Part shown: piece after piece, positions 58-13,698 of the stretch
Layout of the letters: every line of letters starts with the position of its first letter
Numbering within the stretch: position 1 is the stretch's first letter
Origin: an uncultured Muribaculaceae bacterium
GTDB taxonomy: Bacteria > Bacteroidota > Bacteroidia > Bacteroidales > Muribaculaceae
NCBI GenBank assembly: GCA_947177435.1
Contig: CAMWUM010000020.1
Span: 1-13,698 of the forward strand
Direction: 5' to 3'
DNA length: 13,698 nt
The notes under the pieces: model-generated
The model's database searches: none
Told to the model about the DNA's origin: nothing
Seen by the model: only the letters and a program-made list of their open reading frames with translations
Translations under genes and position numbers: made by a program

Positions 58-84
58 ACAACGATAATGCTGACTAATAAGACT

Positions 85-1599
85 ATGGGAAAGAAAGCTT
101 TGCTGATGATCCTCGACGGTTGGGGCATCGGCGACAAGTCGAAAAGCGACGTCATATACAACACTCCCACCCCCTACTGGGAATCGCTGCTGGCCAACTA
201 CCCTCACTCTGAGCTGCAGGCTTCGGGCGAGAACGTGGGCCTGCCCGACGGCCAGATGGGCAACTCTGAGGTGGGCCACCTCAACATCGGCGCCGGCCGC
301 GTGCTGTACCAGGACCTGGTGAAGATCAACAAGGCCATCGCCGACGGCTCGATCCTCAAGAACGCGCAGGTCAAGAACGCCTTCGAGTACGCCCAGCGCA
401 CCGGCAAGGGCATGCACTTCATGGGCCTGACCTCGAACGGCGGCGTGCACTCGTCGCTCGACCACATCTTCGCCCTGTGCGACATCGCCGCCCACTATGG
501 CCTGAAGGACGTGTACCTCCACTGCTTCATGGACGGCCGCGACACTGACCCCCGTTCGGGCAAGGGATTCATCGCCGAGCTGCAGGACCACTGCGCCAAG
601 ACCACCGGCACCATCGCGTCGATCATCGGCCGATACTACGCCATGGACCGCGACAAGCGCTGGGAGCGCGTCAAGGTGGCCTACGACCTGCTGGTCAACG
701 GTCAGGGCGAGCAGGCTACCGACATGGTGGCCGCCATGCAGCAGAGCTACGACAATGACGTGACCGACGAGTTCGTAAAGCCCATCAACAACGCCACCGT
801 CGACGGCACTATCAAGGACGGCGATGTGGTGATTTTCTTCAACTACCGCAACGACCGCGCCAAGGAACTCACCGTCGTGCTCACCCAGCGTGACATGCCC
901 GAGGAAGGAATGCACACCATCCCCGGCCTGCAGTACTACTGCATGACGCCGTACGACGCTTCGTTCACCGGCGTGCACATCCTCTTCGACAAGGAGAACG
1001 TCGACAATACCATCGGCGAGTACCTCTCGGCCCAGGGCAAGAAGCAGCTGCACATCGCCGAGACCGAGAAGTACGCCCACGTCACATTCTTCTTCAACGG
1101 CGGCCGCGAAGCCCCCTTCGACGGCGAAGACCGCATCCTGGTGCCCTCGCCCAAGGTGGCCACCTACGACCTCAAGCCCGAGATGAGCGCCTACGAGGTC
1201 AAGGACAAGCTCGTCGAAGCCATCGATTCTGAGAAGTACGACTTCATCGTGGTCAACTTCGCCAACGGCGACATGGTGGGCCACACTGGCGTGTACTCTG
1301 CTATCGAGAAGGCCGTCAAGACCATCGATGCCTGCGTCAAGGAGGTGATCGAGGCCGTCAAGCACCACGGCTACGAGGCCATCATCATCGCCGACCACGG
1401 CAATGCCGACAACGCCCTCAACGCCGATGGCACCCCCAACACGGCCCACTCGCTCAACCCCGTGCCCTGCGTCTACGTCACCGAAAACAAGGATGCCCAC
1501 GTCACCGACGGCATCCTGGCCGACGTGGCCCCCACCATCCTGCGCATCATGGGCCTTCCCCAGCCGGCCGAGATGACCGGCAAGTGCCTGATCAACTAA
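85..1599 (+). CDS. gpmI: 2,3-bisphosphoglycerate-independent phosphoglycerate mutase
   Basis: Interconverts 3- and 2-phosphoglycerate in glycolysis and gluconeogenesis in the cytoplasm, through a phosphoserine intermediate and two metal ions (Mn2+ in characterised enzymes). Alkaline-phosphatase-superfamily signatures are visible, numbered from an alternative ATG at 67: DGWG (D17), the phosphoserine loop [10 protein letters not shown] (S67), [20 protein letters not shown] (D402, H406), ADHGNAD (D443, H444) and TAHS (H461). The usual catalytic set therefore looks complete. I prefer the ATG at 85 because the protein then opens [14 protein letters not shown], as family members do, placing the serine at 61, close to its position 62 in the Bacillus enzyme. 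It gives 504 aa, a normal length. The ATG at 67 would add six residues. No ribosome-binding site decides the matter. The 3' end overlaps the ComF-type gene or stops just short of it. Confidence 0.96.
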
Positions 1600-2300
1600 C
1601 CGTGCGCTCGCTGCTCGCAGGCCTGGGCCACATTGCGGCCCCGCGGGTGTGCCGCGTATGCGGACGCGCGCTCGCCGCCGCCGAGGAGCACCTCTGCCTG
1701 GGGTGCCTCGTCGATCTCCCGCGCACAGGCGCGCACGCCAGCGAGTTCAATATCATACACCAGCGGCTCGGCCACAATTGCCATGTGGACCGGGCCGCTG
1801 GCTGGTTTTTCTACCGCCGCGCCACCCCCTACGCACGCCTGCTGGTCGACGCCAAGTACGGCGGCCTGCCGCGCCTGGCCCGCTCGCTGGGGCGCATCTG
1901 CGCAGCCGAACTGATGGCTGACGGATTTTTCGACGGCATCGAAGCGCTGGCTCCCATGCCCATGCACTGGACCAAGCGCCTGGCCCGAGGCTACAACCAG
2001 GCCGAGGAGATATGCCGGGGCATAGCCGACGCCACCGGCATAGCCATCTGCCATTCGGCGCTGCGCGCCGCCAAGAGCCACGGCATACAGGCGCGCCAGA
2101 GCGCCGCCGGCCGCTACGCCAACATCGCCGGCACAATCGCCCCGGGCCGAGGAGCCTCAACACTTGTTGGACGCCATGTGCTGCTGGTCGACGACATCAT
2201 CACCACCGGGGCTACGGTCGCCGAAGCCGTGCGCGCCCTTGCCTCCGAATCGCCATCTGCCATTTCAGTCCTGGCTCTGGGACTCACCACAACCAACTAA
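1584..2300 (+). CDS. ComF family phosphoribosyltransferase-like protein
   Basis: A ComF/GntX-type protein of 238 aa. The N-terminus carries two CxxC pairs (C23/C26 and C38/C41), the usual zinc-ribbon of the family. Residues 124-141 hold the conserved [18 protein letters not shown] stretch. Residues 199-211 hold [13 protein letters not shown], the PRPP-binding loop of type I phosphoribosyltransferases. ComF is required for DNA uptake in naturally competent bacteria, where it works with the ComFA helicase. In Bacteroidetes the substrate and role are not established, and no other competence gene is visible here. The start is uncertain: GTG at 1584 overlaps gpmI by 16 nt, while an in-frame GTG at 1602 begins just after the gpmI stop and would still keep both CxxC pairs. 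It is probably translated from the gpmI transcript. Confidence 0.9.
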
Positions 2301-2340
2301 CACAATGTTTTTCAAAAACAAACCGTTTTTTTTGGTAAAA

Positions 2341-2372
2341 TTTGGTTAATTTTAAAAAACTTGCTATCTTTG
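2341..2372 (+). promoter_or_regulatory. Bacteroidetes-type promoter for the OmpA-family gene
   Basis: TTTG at 2341-2344 (-33 element) is followed after 20 nt by TATCTTTG at 2365-2372, matching the Bacteroidetes -7 consensus TAnnTTTG. Transcription would start near 2379, leaving a leader of about 170 nt. A run of A/T lies directly upstream, which would suit a strong promoter. Confidence 0.75.
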
Positions 2373-2378
2373 CATTCT

Positions 2379-2548
2379 GAATAGTGGCATCAATCGATAC
2401 CGCTCGCATAACTAATAGATTATCAACGAATAGCGCCTATTCATTAAAAATTCGACCTCTCCCGCGAACAAATAACCCAACCAAACGTTTCAATAGAGAA
2501 ATATCACCAATTCATTAAGAATACATAAATTATTTTAAATAAGGTTAT
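2379..2548 (+). other. Long AT-rich 5' leader of the OmpA-family mRNA
   Basis: About 170 nt without a convincing reading frame, markedly more AT-rich than the surrounding genes. It contains a small hairpin, GAATAG-CGC-CTATTC (2428-2442), and two copies of a TTCATTAA(A/G)AAT stretch (from about 2440 and 2511), the second close to the start codon. Only a weak AAGG (2541-2544) precedes the ATG. An A/U-rich unstructured leader is expected for a highly translated Bacteroidetes mRNA. No known riboswitch was recognised. Confidence 0.45.
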
Positions 2549-3790
2549 ATGAAGAAAATGTTACTTCTCGCGGGAGCCGCTACGCTCTTCGCGGTTTCCT
2601 CTGCCAAGGCTCAGGAGACAATCCTCGTCCAGGACGAAGCAGTTGTGGAGTACGACATCACCAACTGTAAGACTGTGTACGACACGAACTGGAATAAAAA
2701 CTGGTTCCTCGAAGTAGGCGCTGGCTTCAACCTCCCCTTCGTTGAGAATCCCGTTGGTGCCGATCGCCACTTCACCGCCAACTACGGCGTAGGCTTCGGC
2801 AAGTGGTTCTCTCCCTACTTCGGCTGGCGCGCCGAGTTCTCCGGCGGCTCTATCCACTGGAACAACTGGCATCACCCCGCAGGCAGAATTGCCGGCGCCA
2901 AGACTGTCAATGCCAACCTCGACATCATGTGGGATATGTTCAACTCAATCGGCGGCGTAAACGACAAGCGCGTCTTCTCGATCGTTCCCTTCATCGGTGT
3001 CGGCGGTACTTTCAACTGGAATTACAAGCACCTCAACGAGTACGAGGAATACATCCCCAAGCATGACTGCCTCTACCCCAACTATGGCGGCAAGAACAAG
3101 AGCAACGAGTGGCTGCTCCCCGTATCTGCCGGTATCCAGTTCCGCTTCCGTCTCTGCAAGTACGTTGACTTCTTCGCTCAGGCACGCGCTTCGTTCTACA
3201 GCGATAGCTACGACAATGTCGTTGTTGCTAAGCCCATCGACGTAAACCTCAGCGCTCTCGGCGGCTTCACCTTCAACCTCGGCGGCCGCAGCTTCAACGG
3301 CTTCAACCCCTGCGACTATACCCAGCAGGTTGCCGACCTCAACACTCAGGTCAACGACCTCCGCGCCGAACTCGCCACCACCGCCCAGGCTCTGGCTGAG
3401 GCTCAGGAACTCCTTGAGAACTTCCCCTGCCCCGAGGCAGAAGTTGTTGAGGTTGCTCCCGACTACGCTCCCCTGCTCGGCACCGTTCGCTTCTCGATCG
3501 GCTCTGCCGCTATCCGCGACATGGAGAAGGTTAACGTTTACAACCTCGCTCAGTGGATGAAGGGCAACGACGCCAAGGTTGTCATCACCGGCTACGCTGA
3601 CAAGGGCACCGGCACCAGCAACTTCAACATGCAGCTCTCTAAGAAGCGCGCTGATGCCGTTTGCAACATGCTCGTTAAGCAGTACGGCATCAACCCCAAC
3701 CGCCTCATCGTTAAGGCCGACGGCAGCAACGTTCAGCCCTACGAGATCAACAACTGGAACCGTATCGTCATCTTCACTGTTGCCGAATAA
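2549..3790 (+). CDS. OmpA-family outer-membrane protein with peptidoglycan-binding domain
   Basis: 413 aa. Residues 1-21 form a signal peptide (MKKMLLLAGAATLF core, cleavage likely after SSAKA). Residues about 25-255 are rich in aromatic and Gly residues, with alternating strands typical of an outer-membrane beta-barrel. Residues about 259-290 form a short Leu/Ala-rich coiled coil or linker. From about 303 to the end is an OmpA C-terminal domain, with TGYADKGTG (D351) and LSKKRADAV (R367) at the positions that bind diaminopimelate in OmpA homologues. It should anchor the outer membrane to peptidoglycan. The spacing from D351 to R367 is one residue longer than in the classical NxxLSxxR pattern. 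The gene uses GTT and GCT often, whereas neighbouring genes favour GTC and GCC, which suggests very high expression. It has its own promoter and a hairpin after the stop. The exact barrel subfamily is not resolved. Confidence 0.93.
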   Translation: MKKMLLLAGAATLFAVSSAKAQETILVQDEAVVEYDITNCKTVYDTNWNKNWFLEVGAGFNLPFVENPVGADRHFTANYGVGFGKWFSPYFGWRAEFSGGSIHWNNWHHPAGRIAGAKTVNANLDIMWDMFNSIGGVNDKRVFSIVPFIGVGGTFNWNYKHLNEYEEYIPKHDCLYPNYGGKNKSNEWLLPVSAGIQFRFRLCKYVDFFAQARASFYSDSYDNVVVAKPIDVNLSALGGFTFNLGGRSFNGFNPCDYTQQVADLNTQVNDLRAELATTAQALAEAQELLENFPCPEAEVVEVAPDYAPLLGTVRFSIGSAAIRDMEKVNVYNLAQWMKGNDAKVVITGYADKGTGTSNFNMQLSKKRADAVCNMLVKQYGINPNRLIVKADGSNVQPYEINNWNRIVIFTVAE

Positions 3791-3819
3791 TCATTCCCCA
3801 TACTCCTCAAAAATCACGG

Positions 3820-3840
3820 GCCCGGGCCGAAAGCCCGGGC
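3820..3840. terminator. Bidirectional hairpin between convergent genes
   Basis: GCCCGGGC (3820-3827), loop CGAAA, GCCCGGGC (3833-3840): a perfect 8-bp GC stem located 29 nt after the OmpA-family stop and 30 nt beyond the stop of the convergent FISUMP-like gene. On the minus strand it is followed closely by TGATTTTTG, a fair T tract. On the plus strand only CTCTTTG follows, so termination of the OmpA transcript may be less sharp or act mainly as 3'-end protection. Confidence 0.7.
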
Positions 3841-3870
3841 GCTCTTTGTATTGTCTCGCTGCCGTCGTTG

Positions 3871-4629
3871 TTATGGCAATACGGGCCGTATGCTGTAGCC
3901 AGTGTCGCGGTCAAACGTCTCGAGCCATCGGCGGTGCAGATTGATCCAAAGGGCGTAAGCCTCCTCGTCGCCGGCAGGTGTAGCCGTCCAGTAACGGCCC
4001 AAATCGCCGGCATCCTGCACCGAGGTCATGTTATGCCAGCCGGCGGCGGGCAGATATAGCACGTTGCCGTTGCGGGCCGTCACCTCATAGCCCGAGCCAT
4101 CCCAACGCCACGAGCAGCTGTCAATCAGTTCTTGGCATTCCTCCCTGGTGGGCAGGCGCCAATCGCCGCCCCACAGGGCGCGGGCCGCGTCGCAAGCGGC
4201 ATTGCCGGCTATGCCCCCAATTCTCTTGCCGTATGTGAGCGAGTTGTCCGTGTCGTAAGTCTCCTTGGCCGAGATTTCACCCCAGGCGTAAAAGTCTCCG
4301 TGGTCGCGGGGCGAGGCGGCGCCAATGTTGCAGGCCGCCCACCTTACCCTCGTGCCCATGTCGAGCCACTGGTGGCCGCCTTCGTCGCCAATGCAGGGAT
4401 TTTCCAACTCCACCTCTTCGTCGGAGAGCGGCTCCACTGACAGTTTGCCTTCGGCGGCTGGGCTTTCACTGCCGGCCTCGGCATTCCCTGGGACGTTTTC
4501 GGGGGCCGGCTCATCGGGCAATTCGGGCCGGGCGGCATCCTTGGCAAGAAAATAAACGGCGACGCCTGCCGCGATAAAGGCCGCGGTGGCTATCGGGATG
4601 ATGATCTTTTGCTTGTTTTTGGGTGTCAT
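3871..4629 (-). CDS. FISUMP-like membrane-anchored extracytoplasmic protein
   Basis: 252 aa. Residues about 8-29 form one hydrophobic N-terminal segment after a lysine-rich start, probably an uncleaved anchor. Residues about 31-80 are an acidic Pro/Glu/Ala linker. From about 84 to the end is a domain resembling the Fibrobacter succinogenes major paralogous (FISUMP) family: GHQWLDMGTRVRWAACNIGA, GDFYAWGE, WGGDWRLPTREECQELID, LYLPAAG, GRYWTATP and a final GYSIRPV. Such domains are abundant in Bacteroidales surface or secreted proteins, and their ligand is generally unknown. No lipobox cysteine is visible, so this copy is more likely membrane-anchored than a lipoprotein. The start lies 24 nt after the recO stop, which suggests cotranscription from the recO promoter, although no functional link to RecO is apparent. 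Confidence 0.8.
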   Translation of the reverse strand: MTPKNKQKIIIPIATAAFIAAGVAVYFLAKDAARPELPDEPAPENVPGNAEAGSESPAAEGKLSVEPLSDEEVELENPCIGDEGGHQWLDMGTRVRWAACNIGAASPRDHGDFYAWGEISAKETYDTDNSLTYGKRIGGIAGNAACDAARALWGGDWRLPTREECQELIDSCSWRWDGSGYEVTARNGNVLYLPAAGWHNMTSVQDAGDLGRYWTATPAGDEEAYALWINLHRRWLETFDRDTGYSIRPVLP

Positions 4630-4653
4630 TATAGTCGTATAGCTTTAATTTCA

Positions 4654-5373
4654 TCAGAAGAGTGATCGCAGGATGGGCAGAGAGGCAAGCGAACGCATCG
4701 ACGCGTAATGAATCGAGTAATAGTCGAGGATGGCGTCGAGGATAGCGTTGCGCTCACTCCGGCTCAGGCGCAGCAGCCGCAGGGAGCGCGGGCTCAGGCG
4801 CATAAGCACAGCCACCACGCGGGCCTGCTCAGGCGGCAGCGCAGCGCGGTGCAGGGGCGCGGCAATGCTAAAGCGGCCCTCGCGCATATCGAAGTAGGCG
4901 CCAGAGGAGTATGTGCCCATGTCAGGCTCGATGCCCAGGAAGCGGCCGAGATGGGCCAGAAAATAAAGGTGGAAATTAGCAAGGGCCGTGCCGCCGAGTG
5001 ACTGAAGATGCGTGGCCGACGAAAAGATGAAGTCAGACATCAGTTCGTCAGGCCCGCTCTGCCGCAACGCCGAGCATAGGAAGTCGCTGACAAACAGGGC
5101 CACGGTGCCCGCCGCCGGGTCGGCCGACATAGGCGCGGGCACCGGCTTGACGTCGGTGATGCGCGCCAGTTCGCGCCCGGGCTTGGTCCAGGCCACGGCC
5201 TCGAACACCCGCATGGGCATCATGATGGCGCGCCGACGACTCGCCTCTCGCCCTGCGCCCGAGGGTATAACGGCCGCCAGGGCCCCGAGCTCGCGGGTCC
5301 ATAGCGTGGCCACCGACTGCGAGTCGCTGTACTTGACGGCGCGGAGGCATATGCAGGTCACTTTTTGCGGCAT
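4654..5373 (-). CDS. recO: DNA repair protein RecO
   Basis: 239 aa, the usual length. RecO helps load RecA onto SSB-coated single-stranded DNA together with RecR in gap repair. The N-terminal OB-fold signature is visible (CLRAVKYSDSQSVATLWTRELG, about residues 9-30), followed by the central helical region (LFVSDFLCSALR, about 93-104; LANFHLYFLAHLGRFLGIEPD, about 131-151) and a C-terminal segment with YFDMREGRFS (about 160-169). No zinc-binding cysteine cluster of the Deinococcus type is seen. The ATG at 5373 fits the family N-terminus. A possible promoter lies immediately upstream in the shared region with lepB. The ssb tail at the left edge of the window encodes the known RecO partner, but the two genes are about 5 kb apart and on opposite strands. 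Confidence 0.93.
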   Translation of the reverse strand: MPQKVTCICLRAVKYSDSQSVATLWTRELGALAAVIPSGAGREASRRRAIMMPMRVFEAVAWTKPGRELARITDVKPVPAPMSADPAAGTVALFVSDFLCSALRQSGPDELMSDFIFSSATHLQSLGGTALANFHLYFLAHLGRFLGIEPDMGTYSSGAYFDMREGRFSIAAPLHRAALPPEQARVVAVLMRLSPRSLRLLRLSRSERNAILDAILDYYSIHYASMRSLASLPILRSLF

Positions 5374-5392
5374 GGACTGGGTCTTTTAATTG

Positions 5393-5425
5393 CAAAATTA
5401 GCCCAAATTCGGGTCATATCGCCAA
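5393..5425 (-). promoter_or_regulatory. recO: Possible promoter for recO
   Basis: On the minus strand a TAATTTTG -7 element (plus-strand 5393-5400) matches TAnnTTTG. A TTG (plus-strand 5423-5425) stands 22 nt upstream of it as a weak -33. Transcription would start about 14 nt before the recO ATG. The weak -33 lowers confidence. Confidence 0.4.
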
Positions 5426-5458
5426 TTTTGGCGTGAAATTAGCATTTTTAACAGTAAA

Positions 5459-5493
5459 TTGCCCGTGCGTGACAAGATTTTTGAGTAATTTTG
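5459..5493 (+). promoter_or_regulatory. lepB: Possible promoter for lepB operon
   Basis: TAATTTTG at 5486-5493 matches the -7 consensus. TTG at 5459-5461 is a possible -33, with a 24-nt gap that is longer than the roughly 20 seen at the better promoters in this window. Transcription near 5500 would give a leader of about 30 nt to the ATG at 5530. It would also rule out the in-frame TTG at 5491 as a start, because that codon lies inside the -7 element. Confidence 0.45.
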
Positions 5494-5529
5494 TGCTCAT
5501 ATAGACTAATAGCCCTTATACATATCATA

Positions 5530-7089
5530 ATGGTCGACAAAGCACCGTCCGGCACTAATGACCGGCTGAAAAATTTCAAAGACAATTTCTTGGCACGATG
5601 CAAAGACAACACCACTAAGCGTTGGATACGGTTCTCGGCCGTGGCCATCATATACACTTTGTGGGTCGTATGGCTGGGCAACTACTGGTTCCTGCTGGGC
5701 CTGCCGCTGCTGTTTGATATCTACATCACGGGCTACATCCCGTTCTCGTGGTGGCGCACGAGCAAGAGCAAGATGGTGCGCTCAGTGATGAGTTGGGTCG
5801 ACGCCATCGTGTACGCGCTCATCCTTGTCTACTTCATCTTCAACTTCCTGGGCCAGAACTATATGATACCCTCCTCGTCGCTTGAGAAGACGCTCCTGAC
5901 GGGCGACTACCTCCTGGTCGAGAAGGTGACCTACGGACCCCGCGTGCCTATGACGCCCGTCCACTTCCCCCTGGCACACAACACCATGCCGGTCATCGGC
6001 GGCGACAGCTACGCCGACTGGCCACAGAACGGATACCGCCGCCTCTCAGGCACCGGCCAGATCGAGCGGGGCGACATCGTGGTGTTCAACTTCCCTTACG
6101 GCGACACCATCGTATCCAACGAGGAGCGCCTGGCCGCCCAGGGACAAGTCAACGTCTACTATGACATCGCCCGCGACATCGAGCGCAACGGCGTGGCCGA
6201 AGACGGTGCAGCCTTCATCAAGTCGAATCCCGAGGTGTTTGGCGAGGTAAGATACAGGCCCGTCGACCGACGCACCAACTACGTGAAGCGCTGCGTCGGC
6301 CTGCCCGGCGACACGTTCAAAGTGGTGCACGACACCATCTACGCCAACGGCCGAGCACTCCCCACGCCAGTCAACTCGCAGCAGCGCCAGATCGTAGCCC
6401 TCTCGCGACCGCTCACCGACGACGACCGCGCCAAGTACCGCATCACCAACGAAGATATGGCCTACTCCGGATTCTCGCCGGAGGAGACGCCCCACATGCA
6501 GGCTTACCTGCGCCTGCCGGCCAACACGCCCATCTACAAACTGCCCCTGTCGCTCGCCACAATCGAGCAGATGCGCGCCGACGGGCTGCTCATCTCCAAC
6601 CTCAAATACAACGATTACCTGCGCCGCATAGGCCATCCCGACCTTTTCAGGGGCATCTTCAATCCCCGCCCGCTGTGGACCCCCAGCGACTGGGGCGGCG
6701 ACGGAGTCGTAATCCCATTCCGCGGCCTCACAATCCCCCTCACCGAGGACAACTGGACGCTCTACGAGCGCTGCATCCGCAACTACGAGGGCCACAACGA
6801 CTACTATTTCACAGATGGCAAGGTACTTGACGGCCAGGGCAACGAGGTGAAGGAATACACCTTCGCCATGGACTATTATATGATGATGGGCGACAACCGC
6901 GACAACTCGTCCGATTCCCGCTTCTGGGGCTTCGTGCCCGAGGACCACATCGTGGGCCGCCCGCTCATCGTGCTCATATCATTCGATCCCGACAAGGGCC
7001 TCTTCTCCAACATACGCTGGAGCCGAATGTTCTCCAACCCCAACCCCGACAAGGCCGCCTTCAAGGCCTTCGAAAAAGGCATCGACTAA
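5530..7089 (+). CDS. lepB: Signal peptidase I
   Basis: 519 aa, an inner-membrane serine protease that removes signal peptides from exported proteins at the periplasmic face. Two or more hydrophobic segments lie at about 34-70, and another at about 89-108. The catalytic serine box reads IPSSSLEKTL (S117 by alignment with SMxPT), then TGDYLLVEK. The lysine box is YVKRCVGLPGD (K253), and the closing motif is MGDNRDNSSDSRFWGFVP (about 453-470). The Ser-Lys distance (136 residues) and the Lys-to-GDNRDNS distance (about 200) are far longer than in E. coli LepB, so two large insertions sit around the periplasmic catalytic fold. Long forms are common in Bacteroidetes. It heads an apparent operon with the next two genes (4-nt gap, then a 16-nt overlap). 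The ATG at 5530 is chosen over a TTG at 5491 that would fall within the likely promoter. Confidence 0.93.
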   Translation: MVDKAPSGTNDRLKNFKDNFLARCKDNTTKRWIRFSAVAIIYTLWVVWLGNYWFLLGLPLLFDIYITGYIPFSWWRTSKSKMVRSVMSWVDAIVYALILVYFIFNFLGQNYMIPSSSLEKTLLTGDYLLVEKVTYGPRVPMTPVHFPLAHNTMPVIGGDSYADWPQNGYRRLSGTGQIERGDIVVFNFPYGDTIVSNEERLAAQGQVNVYYDIARDIERNGVAEDGAAFIKSNPEVFGEVRYRPVDRRTNYVKRCVGLPGDTFKVVHDTIYANGRALPTPVNSQQRQIVALSRPLTDDDRAKYRITNEDMAYSGFSPEETPHMQAYLRLPANTPIYKLPLSLATIEQMRADGLLISNLKYNDYLRRIGHPDLFRGIFNPRPLWTPSDWGGDGVVIPFRGLTIPLTEDNWTLYERCIRNYEGHNDYYFTDGKVLDGQGNEVKEYTFAMDYYMMMGDNRDNSSDSRFWGFVPEDHIVGRPLIVLISFDPDKGLFSNIRWSRMFSNPNPDKAAFKAFEKGID

Positions 7090-7093
7090 TGCA

Positions 7094-7630
7094 ATGAAAC
7101 ACATGGATATAGACCAGAAATTCAAATACGCCGACGAGCGCGACAAGTGCTACGGCCTGGCCGGCATCGCCATCTCGCTCAACGTGTGGGACGGCCACCA
7201 GGCCATACGCCAAATCACGATCGACGGCCCCGAATCCATTAGCTTCGCCCCCGAGGCCGAAGTGTACACCAACCCCCGAATGTCGGCCAAAATCGTCTGG
7301 AACGACCAGTTGCGCCAGTACCAACTGCTGATGGGCATGGCTCTGAGCAACCTTATGAGCCGCGCCATCGTGCTGCGCCACAAACAGATAGGCAGCGACC
7401 TGCGCGACCGCTTCTTCGCCATCGCCGACGCCGACGGCCAGGCCTACTGCGCCCTCGAGCACGACGAGACAGAGATGATCTTCAACAAGACGTACCAATA
7501 CCTCAACTCCCTCTACTCCAACTCTCAGGTGATCAACGCCGTGCGCCAGTTCGCCGAGACGCTGCAAAGCCGGCGCACAATGTCGGCGGCCGAAGTCGAG
7601 GAGGAACTTGCTCGATGCCTTCGCCACTGA
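7094..7630 (+). CDS. Unrecognised conserved-looking cytoplasmic protein
   Basis: 178 aa that I cannot assign to a family. It begins 4 nt after the lepB stop and its end overlaps the WbqC-like gene by 16 nt, so it is almost certainly translated from the same mRNA. No signal peptide, membrane segment or cysteine cluster is visible. The first half looks alpha/beta (AGIAISLNVWDG, ISFAPEAEVYTNPRMSAKIVW). The second half is strongly helical and charged (LRQYQLLMGMALSNLMSR, then a region around IGSDLRDRFFAIADADGQAYCALEHDETEMIF). The C-terminal 40 residues look like one or two amphipathic helices. Codon usage and GC-rich third positions match its neighbours, which supports a real gene. A second in-frame ATG at 7103 is an equally possible start. 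Function is unknown; association with secretion or envelope biogenesis is inferred from neighbours only. Confidence 0.8.
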   Translation: MKHMDIDQKFKYADERDKCYGLAGIAISLNVWDGHQAIRQITIDGPESISFAPEAEVYTNPRMSAKIVWNDQLRQYQLLMGMALSNLMSRAIVLRHKQIGSDLRDRFFAIADADGQAYCALEHDETEMIFNKTYQYLNSLYSNSQVINAVRQFAETLQSRRTMSAAEVEEELARCLRH

Positions 7631-8256
7631 TCACACGCCCCGGCCGCACCGCCATCCTGCCCCCGCAGTACTGCGGGCAGGTGGGGTATTACGCCCTGTT
7701 GGCCTCATACCCGCGCGCCGTCATCGACCTGGCCATGCCCTACGACAAGCGTCGCAAGAGCGCGCACCGCTGCTCTATAGCCGACGTGCGAGGCCCGCTC
7801 ACGCTCACCGTGCCCATCGAGAAGGCCCATCGGGGCATGACATGGGCCGACGTGTGCGTATCAAGCCACGCCGGCTGGTGGAGCGACCACGCCGTGTCAC
7901 TCGAGTCGGCCTACGGCCGAACACCTTATTTCGAATTCTACTATGACCGCTTCAAGCCCCTGCTCACTCCTCCGGCCCCGGGCCTGACAGTCGGCGATCT
8001 CGACCGCGCCCTCGACCAAATCATCCGCCAAATCCTCGCCCTCGACACCGAAGTGACCTACTACGTCGAGGAACAGCCAGATGCAATAGACGATTACCGT
8101 CGCCAAACCAATTTCGACATCGAAAACGCCCCGGCCTATTACCAAGTCCGCGCCGACCGCCTGGGCTTCATCCCCAATCTCAGCATCCTCGACCTAATCT
8201 TCAACCTCGGCCCGGAATCCCCCCTCCTCCTGCACCGCATATTACAAAAGGCCTGA
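7615..8256 (+). CDS. WbqC-like family protein
   Basis: 213 aa. The N-terminus reads TAILPPQYCGQVGYYALLAS (residues 12-31), followed by a basic DKRRKSAHRC segment (44-53) and LTLTVPIEK (62-70). This matches the WbqC-like family pattern of an I-L-P-x-Y-x-x-x-x-G-Y-x-x-L opening and an R-rich segment before a L-T-V-P strand. Family members often occur in O-antigen or polysaccharide loci, where a role in sugar modification has been suggested but not settled biochemically. No other glycan gene is visible here, and in this window it is the third gene after lepB. The start overlaps the preceding gene by 16 nt. Its last 56 nt overlap a minus-strand reading frame. No terminator hairpin follows the stop. 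Confidence 0.8.
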   Translation: MPSPLITRPGRTAILPPQYCGQVGYYALLASYPRAVIDLAMPYDKRRKSAHRCSIADVRGPLTLTVPIEKAHRGMTWADVCVSSHAGWWSDHAVSLESAYGRTPYFEFYYDRFKPLLTPPAPGLTVGDLDRALDQIIRQILALDTEVTYYVEEQPDAIDDYRRQTNFDIENAPAYYQVRADRLGFIPNLSILDLIFNLGPESPLLLHRILQKA

Positions 8257-8602
8257 CACAATTCTCTACCCACAAGTCACTTACGCTAATGCATATCAGC
8301 ATCATAAGCGTAAGCAAATCAAATATTAATAGTATTTTATGCGGGACAATAATACGTACCAATAAATGATTAATGATTACATAAAGCAGATAGATGCCCA
8401 ATGTTATCAGTACGATTAGAAAATAACTCAACGGCTTGACAGAAACCCTAACATTATATGAGTAATACAATGCTATAAAACAGAATGTCCCAAATAGATA
8501 TACATATGCGACAAATCTAACCAACAAGGTGCGCCAGTTATTTTTAACATACTCCCTGAATACATCCATTAGCCGCTTAATATTTTTCGAATCCAATTCC
8601 AT
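8201..8602 (-). CDS. Small AT-rich multi-pass membrane protein, unknown function
   Basis: 133 aa starting at an ATG at 8602. Three hydrophobic segments are clear: LLVRFVAYVYLFGTFCFIALY (about 26-46), PLSYFLIVLITLGIYLLYVII (about 57-77) and ILLIFDLLTLMMLICISV (about 89-106). A charged N-terminal helix (about 1-24) precedes them. By my count 8281-8580 is about 33% G+C, against roughly 65% in a sampled stretch of the WbqC-like gene, so this patch looks foreign or weakly conserved. The last 17 or so residues (Gly-rich) are read from the antisense of the WbqC-like gene, so the native C-terminus may have been lost and the frame may run on by chance. I recognise no family. The three consistent membrane segments argue against a random frame, but expression is unproven and no good promoter was found. 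Confidence 0.5.
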   Translation of the reverse strand: MELDSKNIKRLMDVFREYVKNNWRTLLVRFVAYVYLFGTFCFIALYYSYNVRVSVKPLSYFLIVLITLGIYLLYVIINHLLVRIIVPHKILLIFDLLTLMMLICISVSDLWVENCVRPFVICGAGGGGIPGRG

Positions 8603-8632
8603 ACTAATTTTGAATATTGATACCTGACAGAC

Positions 8633-8702
8633 GGACGCACGGACCGTGCGTCCCTACTATATGGAAATCAGCAGATTGTAGGGGCGCACGGTTCGTGCGC
8701 CC
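8633..8702. repeat. Inverted pair of palindromic intergenic repeats
   Basis: Two related palindromes face away from each other. The left unit is GGACGCACGG-A-CCGTGCGTCC (8633-8653). The right unit is GGGCGCACG-GTT-CGTGCGCCC (8682-8702). Each is flanked on its inner side by a short shared tag: CCCTAC (8652-8657) is the reverse complement of GTAGGG (8678-8683). Read from the tag outward, both units follow GTAGGG(A/G)CGCACGGT(C/T)CGTGCG(T/C)CC. The differences are compensatory in the stems (A-T in one, G-C in the other), so the fold is kept. This is the architecture of a REP/BIME-like element. It lies 14 nt past the FKBP-type gene stop and could protect that transcript's 3' end. Confidence 0.8.
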
Positions 8703-8716
8703 GCGACCATCGGCTA

Positions 8717-9115
8717 TCACATCACATTTAGCAGCTCGATGTCGAATATGAGGGTTGAGCCACCGGGGATGTCGGGCTGGTTGAGGTTGCCATAGGCTTG
8801 CGAGGCGGGGATGTACACCTCCCATCTGTCGCCCGGATGCATCTGCTGCAAGGCTATTATCCAACCGGGTATCAATTCGCTCAGGCGGAAGGCCGGTGCG
8901 ACACCGCCTCGGCTACTGTCAAACGTCTTGCCGTTGATGGTCTTGCCCATATAGTGCACCATCACCACGCTGCCCCTGTGGGGCGAGCGTCCGCCCTTGT
9001 CGCCTGTCTTGAGCACCTTGCAATAAATGCCTGCGCCGATAGGCTTGACGCCCGGCTCCGCAGCCTTCTCGGCAAGCCACGCTTTATTCTTCTCTACGTA
9101 TTCCTTCTTTGCCAT
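8717..9115 (-). CDS. FKBP-type peptidyl-prolyl cis-trans isomerase
   Basis: 132 aa, a cytoplasmic prolyl isomerase since no signal peptide is seen. After a charged helix (residues 1-20) come the FKBP core motifs: VVMVHYMGKTINGKTFDSS (about 50-68), FRLSELIPGWIIALQQMHPG (76-95) including the buried Trp that lines the active site, RWEVYIPASQAYG (97-109) and IPGGSTLIFDIELLNV (116-131). The domain is complete and the chain ends at its last strand. The ATG at 9115 is chosen because translation from it begins the recognisable protein, while the longer frame above it runs into gpsA. The start lies 8 nt after the gpsA stop, so it is probably the last gene of a lysS-gpsA-FKBP transcript. It may assist folding generally; no specific client is suggested by the context. 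Confidence 0.92.
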   Translation of the reverse strand: MAKKEYVEKNKAWLAEKAAEPGVKPIGAGIYCKVLKTGDKGGRSPHRGSVVMVHYMGKTINGKTFDSSRGGVAPAFRLSELIPGWIIALQQMHPGDRWEVYIPASQAYGNLNQPDIPGGSTLIFDIELLNVM

Positions 9116-9123
9116 TGCCGGGG

Positions 9124-10119
9124 TCAGGTGAGGTGGTCGCAGAGGCCGTTGATGGCCTTGTTGGCGGGGGTGCCGCCGTAGAGGATTGAATAGACGGCGT
9201 CGAGGATGGGCATATTTACGCCGTAGGTGGCATTGATATCGCGGATGCACTTGGTGCCGTAGTAGCCCTCGGCGGTCTGCTCCATCTCCATCAGGGCGGC
9301 CTTGACGGAGTAGCCCTTGCCGATCATAGAGCCGAAGTTGTGGTTACGCGAGAATCGCGAGTAGGCCGTGACGAGCAGGTCGCCCAGGTAAACCGAGTCG
9401 CATATCTGGCGCGGGCGCGGGCTGACTGCGTATACGAAACGCTCCATCTCGCGGATGGCGTTGCTGACGAGCATAGCCAGGAAGTTGTCACCGCGCTTCA
9501 TGCCGTGTATGATGCCGGCGGCGATGGCGTAGACGTTCTTGAGCACGGCTGCGTACTCGATGCCGTCGACGTCGCTCGATATGATGGCATGGGAGTTTTT
9601 CGACTTGATGCACCGGGCGAACGCCTCGGCCTTCTCGGCTGAGTCGCCGCCGATGGTGAGGTATGATATACGGTCGAGGGCCACCTCCTCGGCGTGGCAG
9701 GGGCCGGAGATGACGAGCATATTGTCGTGGCTCATGCCGAAGCGCTGGGCCATGTAGTCGGTGACGAGGATGTTTTCGTCAGGCACGATGCCTTTGATAG
9801 CCGTAACCAAGGCCTTGCCGCTGATGTCGGTGGTAATTTTGTCGACGTGGGCCTTGAAATAGGGCGAAGGCATAGCCAGAAGCATGGTATCGCACTTGTC
9901 GCACACCTCGTTGATGTCGGATGAGAAGAATATGCGGCTGACGTCAAACTCCACGTCGGTGAGGTATGCGGGGTTGTGGCCCACGTGCTTGAACTCTTCG
10001 ATGCGGTCGTCGCGGCGCATGTACCAGTGTATGGTCTCGCAGTTACGCATCAGCAGCTTGGCCAGGGCGGTGGCCCAACTGCCGCCGCCCATCACCGCTA
10101 TGTTGCCGGGGAAATCCAT
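9124..10119 (-). CDS. gpsA: NAD(P)-dependent glycerol-3-phosphate dehydrogenase
   Basis: 331 aa, reduces dihydroxyacetone phosphate to sn-glycerol 3-phosphate for phospholipid synthesis in the cytoplasm. The N-terminal Rossmann motif is present as VMGGGSWATALAKLL (about 9-23). It has Ala where most members have the third Gly of GxGSWGTA. Further family motifs are TAIKG (K109), GPCHAEEVA (139-147), AAVLKNVYAIAAGIIHGM (190-207, with the catalytic Lys K194), GDNFLAML (210-217) and the C-terminal YLGDLL, GKGYSVKAAL and EGYYGTK segments. Length is normal. It starts 9 nt after the lysS stop and is followed at 8 nt by the FKBP-type gene, so all three are likely cotranscribed from the lysS promoter. 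Confidence 0.95.
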   Translation of the reverse strand: MDFPGNIAVMGGGSWATALAKLLMRNCETIHWYMRRDDRIEEFKHVGHNPAYLTDVEFDVSRIFFSSDINEVCDKCDTMLLAMPSPYFKAHVDKITTDISGKALVTAIKGIVPDENILVTDYMAQRFGMSHDNMLVISGPCHAEEVALDRISYLTIGGDSAEKAEAFARCIKSKNSHAIISSDVDGIEYAAVLKNVYAIAAGIIHGMKRGDNFLAMLVSNAIREMERFVYAVSPRPRQICDSVYLGDLLVTAYSRFSRNHNFGSMIGKGYSVKAALMEMEQTAEGYYGTKCIRDINATYGVNMPILDAVYSILYGGTPANKAINGLCDHLT

Positions 10120-10128
10120 AGGCGCTCG

Positions 10129-11643
10129 TTATTTCTTCTCGGGACGCATCTGGGGGAAGAAGAGCACCTCCTGGATGGCGGTCTGGCCGGTCATGAGCAT
10201 CACCAGGCGGTCCATGCCGATGCCCATGCCCGATGTGGGGGGCATGCCGTATTCGAGGGCGCGCACGAAGTCGCGGTCGATGATCATGGCCTCGTCGTCG
10301 CCCTTCTGTCCCAGGCGCATCTGCTCAACGAAGCGCTCGTACTGGTCGATGGGATCGTTGAGCTCGGAGTATGCGTTGGCGAGCTCCTTGCCGTTGACCA
10401 TGAGCTCGAAGCGCTCGGTGAGCTCGGGGTTGTCGCGGTGGCGCTTGGTCAGCGGCGACATCTCAATGGGATAGTCGATGATGAATGTGGGCTGGATGTA
10501 CTTGCCCTCGCACTTCTCGCCGAAGATTTCGTCGATGAGCTTGCCCTTGCCGAGCTTGGGGTCGACGGGAATGTCGAGGTCCTTACATACCTGGCGCAGC
10601 TGGTCCTCATCCATGCCGGTGATGTCCACGCCGGTGTGGTCGAGGATGGCCTGTGCCATGGTGACGCGGGGGAAGGGGGCCTTGAAGCTGATGGTATTGT
10701 CGCCGACCTTAACCTCGGTTGTGCCATTGACGTCGAGGCAGATCTTTTCGAGCATGCGCTCGGTGAAGTCCATCATCCAGTTGTAGTCCTTGTAGGCCAC
10801 GTATATCTCCATGCAGGTGAACTCGGGGTTGTGGGTGCGGTCCATGCCCTCGTTGCGGAAGTTCTTAGAGAACTCGTACACGCCCTCGAAACCGCCCACG
10901 ATCAGGCGCTTGAGGTAGAGTTCGTCGGCTATGCGCAGGTAGAGAGGGATGTCGAGCGCGTTGTGGTGCGTGATGAACGGACGGGCCGACGCGCCGCCGG
11001 GAATCGACTGCAGGATGGGAGTCTCGACCTCCATGTAGCCTGCGGCGTTGAAGTATTCGCGCATCGAGTTGTATACCTTGGTGCGCTTTACGAATATATC
11101 GCGGATGCCGGGATTGACCACCAGGTCGACGTAGCGCTGGCGGTAGCGCAGCTCGGGATCCTCAAAGGCGTCGTATGCCACGCCGTCCTTCACCTTTACG
11201 ATGGGCAGCGGGCGCAGGCTCTTGCTCAGCAGGGTGAGCTCCTGGCAGTGCACCGAGATTTCGCCTGTCTGGGTACGGAACACGTAGCCCTTTATGCCCA
11301 CGAAGTCGCCGATGTCGAGCAGCTTCTTAAACAGCACATTGTACAGGTCCTTGTTCTCGCCCGGGCATATTTCGTCGCGGCTGACGTAGACCTGGATGCG
11401 GCCATGCGAGTCCATCAGCTCGGCAAACGAAGCCTTGCCCATGACCCTGCGGCTCATCAGACGGCCTGCGATGGCCACTTGGCGCGGGGGCTCGAGAGCG
11501 TCGTCGAAGTTGGCTTTGATTTCGTCGCTGTATGCGTTGACGGGGAACAGCGCGGCGGGGTAAGGCTCAATGCCCATCTGGCGTATCTTGTCCAAGCTGG
11601 CGCGGCGGATGGCCTCCTGCTCGCTCAATTCAATATTGCTCAT
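10129..11643 (-). CDS. lysS: Lysyl-tRNA synthetase, class II
   Basis: 504 aa, charges tRNA-Lys with lysine. An N-terminal OB-fold anticodon-binding domain covers about 55-140 ([21 protein letters not shown]). The class II catalytic domain follows, with motif 1 around [10 protein letters not shown] (202-211), motif 2 as [20 protein letters not shown] (262-281) and motif 3 as [15 protein letters not shown] (472-486). The chain ends 18 residues past motif 3, at [10 protein letters not shown]. The ATG at 11643 ([14 protein letters not shown]) is chosen because its promoter lies just upstream. An in-frame start at 11703 would fall within the -33 element and add 20 atypical residues. It leads an apparent operon with gpsA and the FKBP-type gene. 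Confidence 0.96.
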
Positions 11644-11673
11644 GCTCAAAATGCGGTTTAAGATAATAATGCG

Positions 11674-11704
11674 CAAAGGTAGCGCTTTTTTTTGGCATTG
11701 CAAA
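11674..11704 (-). promoter_or_regulatory. lysS: Bacteroidetes-type promoter for lysS operon
   Basis: On the minus strand TTTG (plus-strand 11701-11704) is followed after 19 nt by TACCTTTG (plus-strand 11674-11681), an excellent match to the TTTG/TAnnTTTG pattern. Transcription would start near 11667, giving a leader of about 24 nt. The upstream stretch is pyrimidine-rich on the plus strand. Confidence 0.75.
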
Positions 11705-11751: not shown

Positions 11752-13509
11752 TCAGTACATTGAGTCGATGACGGAGGCGTAGTTGGCGGCGATTACGGGG
11801 CGGCGGATTTTGAGGGTGTTGGTGAGTTCGCCGCTCTCGATGGTGAAGGCCGAGGGCAGCAAGGTGAACTTCTTAATCTGCTCAAACGAGGGCAAGCCTC
11901 GCTGCAGGCGGTCGATGCGCCGCTTGAGCATGTCCATGATTTCGGAGTTGCGTATCAAGTCGTTGATGCTCTTGAAGGCGATGCCTTTCTTGCGGGCGTA
12001 GTCCTTCAGAGCCTCGTAGGCGGGGATGATGATGGCGGTGACGTAGCTGCGGCTCTCGCCCACGACGGCCACCTGGTCGATGTACTTGTCAGCGCCGAGG
12101 CGGCTCTCGATGGCCTGCGGGGCCACATACTTGCCGTTGCTGGTCTTGAATAGGTCTTTCAGCCTCTCGGTGAGCACCAGGCCGCCGGCGTGGTCGATGC
12201 GGCCGGCATCACCGGTACGCAGCCAGCCGTCGCCGGTGAACGCCTCGCTGGTGGCCTCCTGGTCGCGGTAGTAACCGCGCATCACGATGTCACCCCGGAC
12301 CTGCACCTCGCCCTCCAGGCCGATGCGCAGTTCTACGCCTGGCATTGCCACGCCCACCGAGCCTATCTCGTAGGCCTGATCGGGGTAGCAGGTGACGGTG
12401 GCAGTGGTCTCCGACATACCGTAGCCGATGAAGATGGGCACACCGATGCTGCGGAAAAAGTCAACAATCTCAGGCGAGATGGGCGCGCCGGCCGTAGGGA
12501 ATATGTTGCCCTGGTCCACGCCCATGGCCCTGCGGGTGGGCGCCAGGAAGTGACGGTCGAAAAAGCGGTACAGCCTCTCTGTTAGCCACGGAGCGGGACG
12601 GCCCATGCGCTCATATTTGACGTTGCGCTTGTGTCCGCAGCGCACGGCGGCGCGGGCCAGCCAACGCTTCGGGGCGGGCAGGGCTGCAATCTTCTCCTGG
12701 ATCAAAGCGTAGGCCTTCTCCCAGAAGCGGGGCACGGAGCACATGCACGTGGGGCGCACGGCCCTCACGGCCTTGGCTATCTCCTTGGCATTCTGGTTGA
12801 TGGCAATGTTGATGCCAAGGGTGATGCAAAGGTACGTCCAGGCCTTCTCAAATATATGGCACAGAGGCAGGAAGCACAGTGAGCGGTCGGCGTCGCTGAG
12901 CATGTCGAGCCGCACGCGGTGGGTGCGCATCTGGGCGTCGAAGCAACGGTGAGGCAGGTCGGCGGCCTTTGGATGCCCCGTAGTGCCGGAGGTATAGATG
13001 AGCGTAGCCGTGTCGTCGGGGGTGACGGCAGCGCGGCGGCGCTCGATTTCATCCATCGGGAAGACGGCATTGGCCGTGTCGAGCCTCGGGCCGGTGCCAT
13101 CCCAGGCGTACAGCTTGGGAATGCCGCCAAGCGAGGCAAGCATATCGTACTGCCCCTGAGCGCCGGCGAAGGCCAACTTGGGCTGGCTATTTTCTATGAT
13201 GTGCGCCACCTGCTCGCGGCTGGCCGTGGCATAGATCGACACGGGGATTGCGCCGTTGGCATAGCAGGCAAAGTCGGTAATGATCATCTCGGGGCGGTTG
13301 GCCGAGAACACCAGGCAGACGTCGCCTGGGCCGAGTCCCTGCCCGGCCAGCGCACGGGCCGTCTGACGCACAGCCTCGGCCAGTTCCACGTATGAATACG
13401 AGGCTAATTCCTCGCCGCTTTCGTTGACCCACGAGAGGGCCTGCCGCGACCCATATTTCCGGGCCTGCTCATCAATAATGTAAGGCAATATGCAACGTGT
13501 ATTTTCCAT
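11752..13509 (-). CDS. AMP-forming long-chain acyl-CoA synthetase-like protein
   Basis: 585 aa, ANL-superfamily adenylating enzyme, most like long-chain fatty-acid-CoA ligases, which activate fatty acids through an acyl-AMP intermediate. Motifs in order: ATP loop TLIYTSGTTGHPKAAD (about 169-184), LPLCHIFEKAW (214-224), GYGMSETTATVT (362-373), GEVQVRGDIVMRGYY (400-414), GWLRTGDAGRID (428-439), ERLKDLFKTSNGKYVAP (448-464) and the C-terminal TNTLKIRR with the adenylation Lys K567. The ATP loop reads PKAAD where the family usually has PKGV(M/V). The ATG at 13509 is chosen over an in-frame TTG at 13524. No signal peptide is present. Substrate chain length cannot be read from sequence alone. It stands alone on this strand, and its upstream region carries an operator array more than 90 bp away. 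Confidence 0.88.
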   Translation of the reverse strand: MENTRCILPYIIDEQARKYGSRQALSWVNESGEELASYSYVELAEAVRQTARALAGQGLGPGDVCLVFSANRPEMIITDFACYANGAIPVSIYATASREQVAHIIENSQPKLAFAGAQGQYDMLASLGGIPKLYAWDGTGPRLDTANAVFPMDEIERRRAAVTPDDTATLIYTSGTTGHPKAADLPHRCFDAQMRTHRVRLDMLSDADRSLCFLPLCHIFEKAWTYLCITLGINIAINQNAKEIAKAVRAVRPTCMCSVPRFWEKAYALIQEKIAALPAPKRWLARAAVRCGHKRNVKYERMGRPAPWLTERLYRFFDRHFLAPTRRAMGVDQGNIFPTAGAPISPEIVDFFRSIGVPIFIGYGMSETTATVTCYPDQAYEIGSVGVAMPGVELRIGLEGEVQVRGDIVMRGYYRDQEATSEAFTGDGWLRTGDAGRIDHAGGLVLTERLKDLFKTSNGKYVAPQAIESRLGADKYIDQVAVVGESRSYVTAIIIPAYEALKDYARKKGIAFKSINDLIRNSEIMDMLKRRIDRLQRGLPSFEQIKKFTLLPSAFTIESGELTNTLKIRRPVIAANYASVIDSMY

Positions 13510-13521
13510 AATATTCCTTCT

Positions 13522-13556
13522 CAAAAATAAAAATACTATATATTAAAAACGCCCAA
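13522..13556 (-). promoter_or_regulatory. Weak candidate promoter for the acyl-CoA ligase gene
   Basis: On the minus strand TATTTTTG (plus-strand 13522-13529) fits TAnnTTTG, with a TTG (plus-strand 13554-13556) 24 nt upstream. The spacing is long and the implied leader is only a few nucleotides. The region is so A-rich that the match could be chance. Confidence 0.25.
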
Positions 13557-13599
13557 CCCTTCAGCATTGCTCACCACCGTACTGCTCAACCACCCTAAA

Positions 13600-13675
13600 T
13601 GATTATTGCAATAATCAATCAATAAAAATGATTATCGCAATAATCATTTCTCAAATTTGATTATTGCAATAATTA
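13600..13675. promoter_or_regulatory. Array of three 18-bp palindromic operators at 29-bp spacing
   Basis: Three copies of TGATTATTGCAATAATCA. Copy 1 (13600-13617) is a perfect palindrome. Copy 2 (13629-13646) differs at one base (TC for TT before GCAA), and its arms extend to AAATGATTAT...ATAATCATTT. Copy 3 (13658-13675) differs at one base near its right end. Centres lie at 13608.5, 13637.5 and 13666.5, exactly 29 bp apart, with unrelated 11-nt spacers. The third copy fills the interval between the -33 and -7 elements of the rightward promoter, a classic repressor position. The protein that binds is unknown. Confidence 0.8.
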
Positions 13676-13687
13676 TTTGTACCTTTG
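13656..13687 (+). promoter_or_regulatory. Rightward promoter for a gene beyond the window
   Basis: TTTG (13656-13659), 20 nt, TACCTTTG (13680-13687): a full match to the Bacteroidetes pattern, with the same -7 octamer as the lysS promoter. Transcription would start near 13694. Its gene is outside the window. The palindromic operator at 13658-13675 overlaps the spacer and the end of the -33 element. Confidence 0.75.
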
Positions 13688-13698
13688 CACCATAATAC

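Follow-up and report, generated by a model that had tools for sequence, protein, structure and literature searches.

Which gene lies beyond the right-hand end of contig CAMWUM010000020.1, and which protein controls it? This contig of an uncultured Muribaculaceae bacterium (assembly GCA_947177435.1) comprises 13,698 nucleotides and was analyzed over its full length, hereafter referred to as the window. It stops just past three near-identical 18-bp palindromes that lie over a rightward promoter. The array is probably the operator of the gene cut off by the contig end, most likely a gene for a ~396-residue AAA_14/DUF4143 ATPase of the PDC-S01 type, which would repress itself through an operator of private sequence.

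The array and its relatives

The three palindromes start at positions 13600, 13629 and 13658, a constant 29-bp step. The candidate operator box 1 (13600..13617, TGATTATTGCAATAATCA) is a perfect palindrome, the candidate boxes 2 (13629..13646, TGATTATCGCAATAATCA) and 3 (13658..13675) each carry one mismatch to it, none of the boxes being assigned a strand, and the two 11-nt spacers, ATCAATAAAAA and TTTCTCAAATT, are unrelated to each other. Box 3 sits between a -33 element, TTTG (13656..13659, plus strand), whose last two bases are the first two of the box, and a -7 element, TACCTTTG (13680..13687, plus strand). With its 20-nt spacer, this rightward promoter fits the Bacteroides consensus TTTG (-33) / TAnnTTTG (-7), and no sigma-70-type promoter was found at 13400-13698. 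The leader (13688..13698, plus strand) runs to the contig end. The repeats, their exact spacing, the unrelated spacers and the place of the third palindrome are thus as a sequence-only reading of the window had described them.

The motif is rare in its own genome. TGATTATTGCAATAATCA finds no match at up to three mismatches in 200 dinucleotide shuffles of the window, and the genome bin (G000; 2.0 Mb, 311 contigs, 78.6% complete) contains, at the same tolerance, only the three boxes themselves; the window array is therefore not a dispersed repeat, an outcome that the sequence-only reading had named as damaging to an operator. An Rfam search of the region returns no match, blastn against plasmids and phages reports weak matches only (best E 0.04), and the exact palindrome occurs twice in viral contigs, both times within open frames. 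Text searches of the literature with fragments of the boxes gave nothing relevant among the papers listed, judging by titles.

Relatives carry the same motif (genomes, contigs and loci are designated below by G, C and L numbers). Strict searches for the 29-bp array pattern in 297 genomes of the family, and for the pattern with gaps of 6-36 in 393 genomes of the order and in viral contigs, returned nothing outside the window, because the boxes of relatives are less palindromic; the uniqueness that these searches suggested was overturned by blastn. With positions 13530-13698 as the query against 397 family genomes, 19 loci besides the window's own were scanned among the matches listed, and eight of them hold arrays, all in exact 29-bp steps, with five copies in G078, four in G181, three each in G758, G742 (contig C90), G291, G004 and G020, and two in G746. 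A ninth array, with three copies at the same step, is found in contig C97 of G742 (L273). This conserved phasing in nine arrays from other genomes supports an operator-like element over the rightward promoter, as the sequence-only reading had proposed.

Six of the nine arrays are followed by an AAA_14/DUF4143 ATPase gene, whether whole, cut short after its start or reduced to a remnant. The ~396-residue gene is intact and directly follows the array in four cases (G078, G742 C90, G004 and G020), and the four proteins share 76-80% identity. Contig C97 of G742 ends 35 bases into the ATPase gene, just past a near-identical array, which supports the view of these genes as repeated units at which assemblies break. 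In G746 (C170; L157 / L277), an in-frame middle deletion has left approximately the first 23 and the last 35 residues, with two boxes and the promoter kept.

Arrays upstream of ATPase genes

Among homologues of the genus, the upstream architecture is the same and the box words differ, with TGTCGGTTGCAACCGACA occurring three times in G047, and TGCTCTCTCGGGAGAGCA, TGCACCTTGGAAGGTGCA and TCCCTCATTGAGGGA elsewhere. A wider survey covered 102 ATPase loci, which are the best-scoring homologues from searches and not a random sample. Thirteen were dropped as fragments or for internal stops (L178, L202, L203, L226, L230, L247), as duplicates (L175, L234, L235), for too short an upstream region (L182, L240, L253) or as masked (L201), leaving 89, and 76 after removal at 80% identity or above. 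In each 200-base upstream region, the best pair of 18-19 bp windows at a spacing of 22 to 45 was scored, likeness and palindromy being rewarded. The scorer was altered once so that palindromes having a central base also count (39 of 52 with the first version, 41 of 48 non-redundant with the second).

Scores of at least 24 are reached by 61 of the 76 non-redundant genes, and of at least 26 by 45. The spacings of the 61 are confined to 28 (1 gene), 29 (17), 32 (17), 33 (25) and 34 bp (1). As controls, 284 upstream regions were taken from open frames of at least 150 residues on 30 contig stretches, almost all of which carry Bacteroidota titles, operon-internal starts being included; 11 of these regions reach 24, none at an ATPase spacing, and none reaches 26. 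When the ATPase upstream regions were shuffled by single nucleotides (240 shuffles), a score of 24 was reached 19 times and a score of 26 once. On score, a few of the 61 could thus pass by chance, but their shared spacings would not arise in this way. The array recurs upstream of most of the ATPase genes collected, and that of the window has the architecture found there, a palindrome repeat at 28-29 or 32-34 bp (here 29 bp) over a promoter. The survey extends to plasmids, where 10 of the 14 records read (out of 32 matching) score at least 24, with examples at 32-33 bp in Runella slithyformis, Emticicia oligotrophica, Segatella copri and Persicobacter, to Aliarcobacter (Campylobacterota, 34 bp) and to archaea, with three near-identical boxes 32 bp apart in Methanosphaera and a weaker array at 32 bp in Methanomethylovorans. 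Upstream of the masked locus L201 (G006:C272), a 33-bp unit is repeated several times before the masked stretch.

The boxes also hold a fixed position relative to the promoter. TAnnTTTG lies within 200 bases in 53 of 57 array-bearing Bacteroidota genes, the arrays of which count 2 to 6 boxes, and in 44 of the 53 the box ladder falls within 3 bp of one phase, with a box centre ~21 bp before the -7 centre; none of 10,000 random draws is as concentrated. A box at this common phase occupies the stretch between -33 and -7, the arrangement expected of an operator that shuts its promoter when bound, and repression is what such an arrangement would imply. The centre of box 3 in the window lies 17 bp before the -7 centre, 4 bp off the common phase. 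An initial count of 43 of 53 boxes in the promoter core was weak, the nearest box of a 30-bp ladder always being close, and was replaced by the phase test.

The ATPase and the reader of the boxes

The proteins of three relatives all match AAA_14 (PF13173; 95.9, 95.9 and 97.3 bits, cut-off 27), and all three stay below the cut-off for DUF4143 (PF13635; 26.7, 24.0 and 22.4 bits, cut-off 28.1), a domain listed among the precomputed domains of many homologues. Six PADLOC models of PDC-S01 match each of the three (best E 1e-25 to 2e-24, judged by E-value and not by PADLOC's own cut-offs). According to the accessible parts of two reports (PMC12988326, PMC13356809), PDC-S01 ranks fourth in frequency among the defences of prokaryotes and is the individual locus met most often in rumen genomes; the report that gives the fourth rank adds that most candidates of this type still await experimental validation. 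Matches to the ATPase at E 1e-20 are present in 12 of 49 genomes of the genus; G013 and G006 hold 7 and 11 (~6 and ~8 nearly full length), with 35-51% identity to the query. Of note, in the accessible part of PMC4406477, TT_P0211 of Thermus thermophilus (AAA 14, DUF4143 and helix-turn-helix motifs), downstream of CRISPR 2.7, has a value of 6.6 in a table on plasmid-DNA-linked changes in expression.

The closest database protein, P0001, is 97% identical to the G742 protein, and the longest contig of its source has 1437 bases. Its AlphaFold model (mean predicted local distance difference test score 90.4) comprises an AAA core, a helical part, a winged helix (residues 234-306) and a small alpha/beta C-terminal part. 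The predicted succession of AAA core, helical domain and winged helix is that of a STAND/NLR-like fold. For residues 1-320, the closest folds are those of SSO1545 and PABY2304 from archaea, followed by CED-4 and plant NLRs, a match that says little about residues 320-396. By sequence, profile positions 263-319 match Orc4 residues 364-420 (E 4.5e-4), the region of the Orc4 winged helix; the PDB rows that score higher are P-loop matches to RecA.

Regarding the protein that reads the array, paralogues of one genome have different boxes, six in G006 (L179, L187, L192, L195, L197, L199), and therefore one regulator common to them would not suffice. Boxes are more alike where the proteins are more identical (Mantel r 0.34, p 0.0005, 41 genes), and no domain stands out when the test is repeated by domain. 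The spacing class follows the ATPase tree, the 29-bp genes forming one supported clade of 17 plus the outlier L218, which has weak boxes; the tree requires 2 spacing changes against 15.8 for shuffled labels, and none of 500 shuffles is as low. The two boxes tested for privacy, those of G000 and G047, are each confined to their own array within their own genome. The G047 box has three sites in G047, all in its array, and at up to three mismatches it finds elsewhere only scattered weak matches (G004 2, G020 2, G041 0, G013 3, G006 3; reversed control 0-1). From the paralogue boxes, the Mantel correlation and the spacing tree, we infer that the ATPase itself is probably the DNA reader. The sequence-only reading had looked to a dimeric regulator and named the Fur, MarR and TetR families without assigning the site to any of them; what goes with the arrays is a single AAA_14/DUF4143 ATPase with a predicted winged helix, and in the cases tested the box is private to its gene instead of shared.

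The missing gene, rival explanations and neighbouring genes

The window is an entire contig (G000:C20), so that the regulated gene announced just outside it has a rightward promoter as proposed and is itself absent from the contig altogether. By motif, spacing and promoter, the window array groups with those of G742, G746, G020, G004 and G078. In these five relatives an ATG sits 36-38 bases past the last box, and the window stops 23 bases past box 3; the missing start codon is thus expected ~13-15 bases beyond 13698. The break at this point would be what a repeated gene causes, as in contig C97 of G742, and the final 21 bases of the window have one other match at up to three mismatches, internal to contig C14 and not at a contig end. 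Since three of the nine related arrays are orphans, we consider it quite likely, short of confident, that the missing gene encodes the ATPase. That gene would then specify an NLR/Orc-like STAND ATPase with a winged helix. Occupation of box 3 would block RNA polymerase by filling the space from -33 to -7, and further subunits would bind side by side at boxes 1 and 2, one fixed spacing apart. The most economical regulator would be the ATPase itself, repressing its own gene, and a separate palindrome for each paralogue would prevent cross-talk within one cell.

Several observations weigh against this reading. Three of the nine arrays (G758, G291 and G181) have no ATPase in the stretch read, and of these one stands before a glycosidase-like gene, another before what is by eye glyS. 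The window ends at 13698, short of the gene, and its bin holds no ATPase copy at E 1e-20, nor did further homologue searches find one. At the survey threshold, 15 of the 76 ATPase genes have no array. Shared ancestry contributes to the Mantel and tree results, which do not fully distinguish it from co-evolution; in addition, the register of some boxes was set automatically and could be a few bases out. Residues co-varying with the boxes do not cluster in the winged helix (3 of the top 25 columns, mean partial r 0.008) and so do not point to a DNA-reading surface. Foldseek gives low TM-scores (0.22-0.34, best E 4e-7), with Apaf-1 first, and to our knowledge the winged helix of CED-4 and Apaf-1 does not read DNA. 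Three of the array-less ATPase homologues (L265, L267, L270) lie directly before nifJ (pyruvate:ferredoxin oxidoreductase), and perhaps have a different, vertically inherited role.

Among the alternatives, the window array may be an orphan whose ATPase was lost or replaced, the promoter now driving another gene. We regard this as possible, if doubtful. The ATPase-less arrays of relatives and the bin without an ATPase fit it, as does box 3 being off the common phase, and the array in G758 (C83; L156 / L276:754-829) gives an example, its three boxes beginning at the end of a Phd/RelE-like gene pair (both weak Pfam matches, below cut-off) with no ATPase in the 2.4 kb read. However, the box spacing and promoter of the window are intact, its three near-identical boxes suggest current selection, and the break of G742:C97 lies at almost the same point, within the start of an ATPase gene, as expected of a repeated gene. 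A separate regulator of the Fur, MarR or TetR type, encoded elsewhere and with the ATPase merely as its target gene, is improbable. Palindromes of 18 bp rich in A and T are typical of such dimers, and two plasmid copies (L263, L264) have annotated helix-turn-helix genes nearby, but each of the six different boxes of G006 would need a dedicated regulator, a spacing class that follows the ATPase tree and the confinement of the two tested boxes to their own arrays speak for the ATPase, and by eye no Fur, MarR or TetR gene was seen by the related arrays in the loci read, nor any regulator gene consistently beside arrays, the family search having covered three neighbours only.

Another possibility, which we consider improbable as well, is that the array is the recognized end or a replicator-like site of a small mobile unit made of array and ATPase gene, handled in the manner of Orc/Cdc6 or of a transposition ATPase, with promoter control being secondary. 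By eye, the two G742 copies have spacers, leader and first codons in common and yet diverge just upstream of the first box. Orphan arrays, the numerous copies in G013 and G006, the short source contig of P0001 and the Orc4 match point the same way. Against it, the 3' side of the genes in the scanned loci shows motif matches only at 6 mismatches, the boxes are phase-locked to the promoter, the identities of the G006 and G013 copies are not those of recent duplicates, and the C-terminal domain, judging from conserved columns, appears to have no canonical E-x-K. As to chance or a dispersed repeat, single TGATTATTGCAATAATCA-type sites at up to two mismatches do occur in 51 of 146 relatives, this genome included, and 23 of the 29 loci of relatives that were read lie within an open frame, for which reason such sites were discarded as a guide to function, being mostly genic and uninformative; the shuffles, the lack of scattered copies in the bin and the nine other 29-bp arrays refute this explanation, the likelihood of which is close to nil.

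If the autoregulatory reading is carried further, AAA_14/DUF4143 ATPases might be minimal NLR-like guards that lie as side-by-side oligomers on their own promoter at a private address, the array serving as thermostat and sensor at once. Once no longer bound to DNA, the protein would be free, its dose would rise and its C-terminal domain would be triggered. Release could come through invader DNA competing for the boxes or through host DNA damage, and the diversification of boxes and spacings would let six to eight or more paralogues share a cell without cross-talk. We consider this extension rather unlikely.

Residues 1-320 of the array ATPases resemble in fold the Orc1/Cdc6 and STAND/NLR ATPases (SSO1545, CED-4, Apaf-1), from which they differ by their C-terminal DUF4143-like domain. 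Archaeal Orc1/Cdc6 proteins read origin boxes, and we know of no case in which these boxes form private promoter arrays. In the accessible part of PMC4599002, Cdc6/Orc1, SSO1545, Apaf-1, CED-4 and NLRC4 are placed in one group, and the plant NLR Rx1 is reported to bind and distort DNA. Other systems share single traits with the array, as far as the available text of each report goes. RptR (PMC12255303) represses a phage-defence island through a palindromic site in three promoter repeats, but it is a small, stand-alone regulator that has a single conserved palindrome of 6 bp; in the arrays described here the palindrome belongs to one gene alone, and no gene for a separate regulator was seen. 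In the phage-defence system AbiE (PMC3985639), the winged-helix protein AbiEi represses its own promoter via inverted repeats; this is a two-gene toxin-antitoxin system with two repeats, for which neither an ATPase nor a family of private boxes at a fixed 29 or 32-34 bp is described. The RepA paralogues of Rhizobium repABC (PMC4492784) bind nucleotides, and each acts as the repressor of its own operon via imperfect palindromes specific to it, but they are plasmid partition proteins of the ParA type and not STAND ATPases. No regulation or operator is described for PDC-S01, the six models of which the ATPases match, in the accessible parts of PMC12988326 and PMC13356809.

The literature searched, outside of which most subscription papers and preprints fall, yielded no description of arrays of this kind. 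What appears new here is the combination of a STAND-type ATPase, a repeat array of fixed spacing and a different box for most family members examined. PDC-S01 is reported to be among the commonest predicted defence systems in bacteria and archaea, with no mechanism given in the accessible text (PMC12988326, PMC13356809), and the array offers a direct handle on the role of this widespread, unexplained ATPase family. A private promoter array for most members is a simple, testable entry point to three questions: which protein binds, how binding depends on the nucleotide state and what causes release. If the ATPase does read the array, an NLR-like ATPase would be a sequence-specific DNA-binding autoregulator, DNA recognition of the Orc/Cdc6 type would be linked to immune-receptor ATPases, and the family would constitute a large natural collection of matched protein-operator pairs.

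The acyl-CoA ligase gene that diverges from the same region had been suggested to be co-regulated. This is not borne out, as array and ligase are on different contigs in both genomes of the genus with a same-motif array (ligase on C6 and array on C38 in G004; C35 and C8 in G020). The ligase promoter appears separate from the array, because a candidate -7 element, TATTTTTG (13522-13529, minus strand), lies ~70 bp left of box 1. Naming the missing gene from the ligase neighbourhood failed, the gene to the right of the ligase not being conserved and varying among relatives, and viral contigs hold no relative of the ligase. A Sir2-like gene, near the ligase in the nearest relatives, is located in this genome 2.1 kb inside another contig. 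The remainder of the window (67-11703) carries, by eye, ordinary-looking chromosomal genes, including phosphoglycerate mutase, ComF, OmpA-like, RecO, signal peptidase, FKBP, GpsA and LysS.
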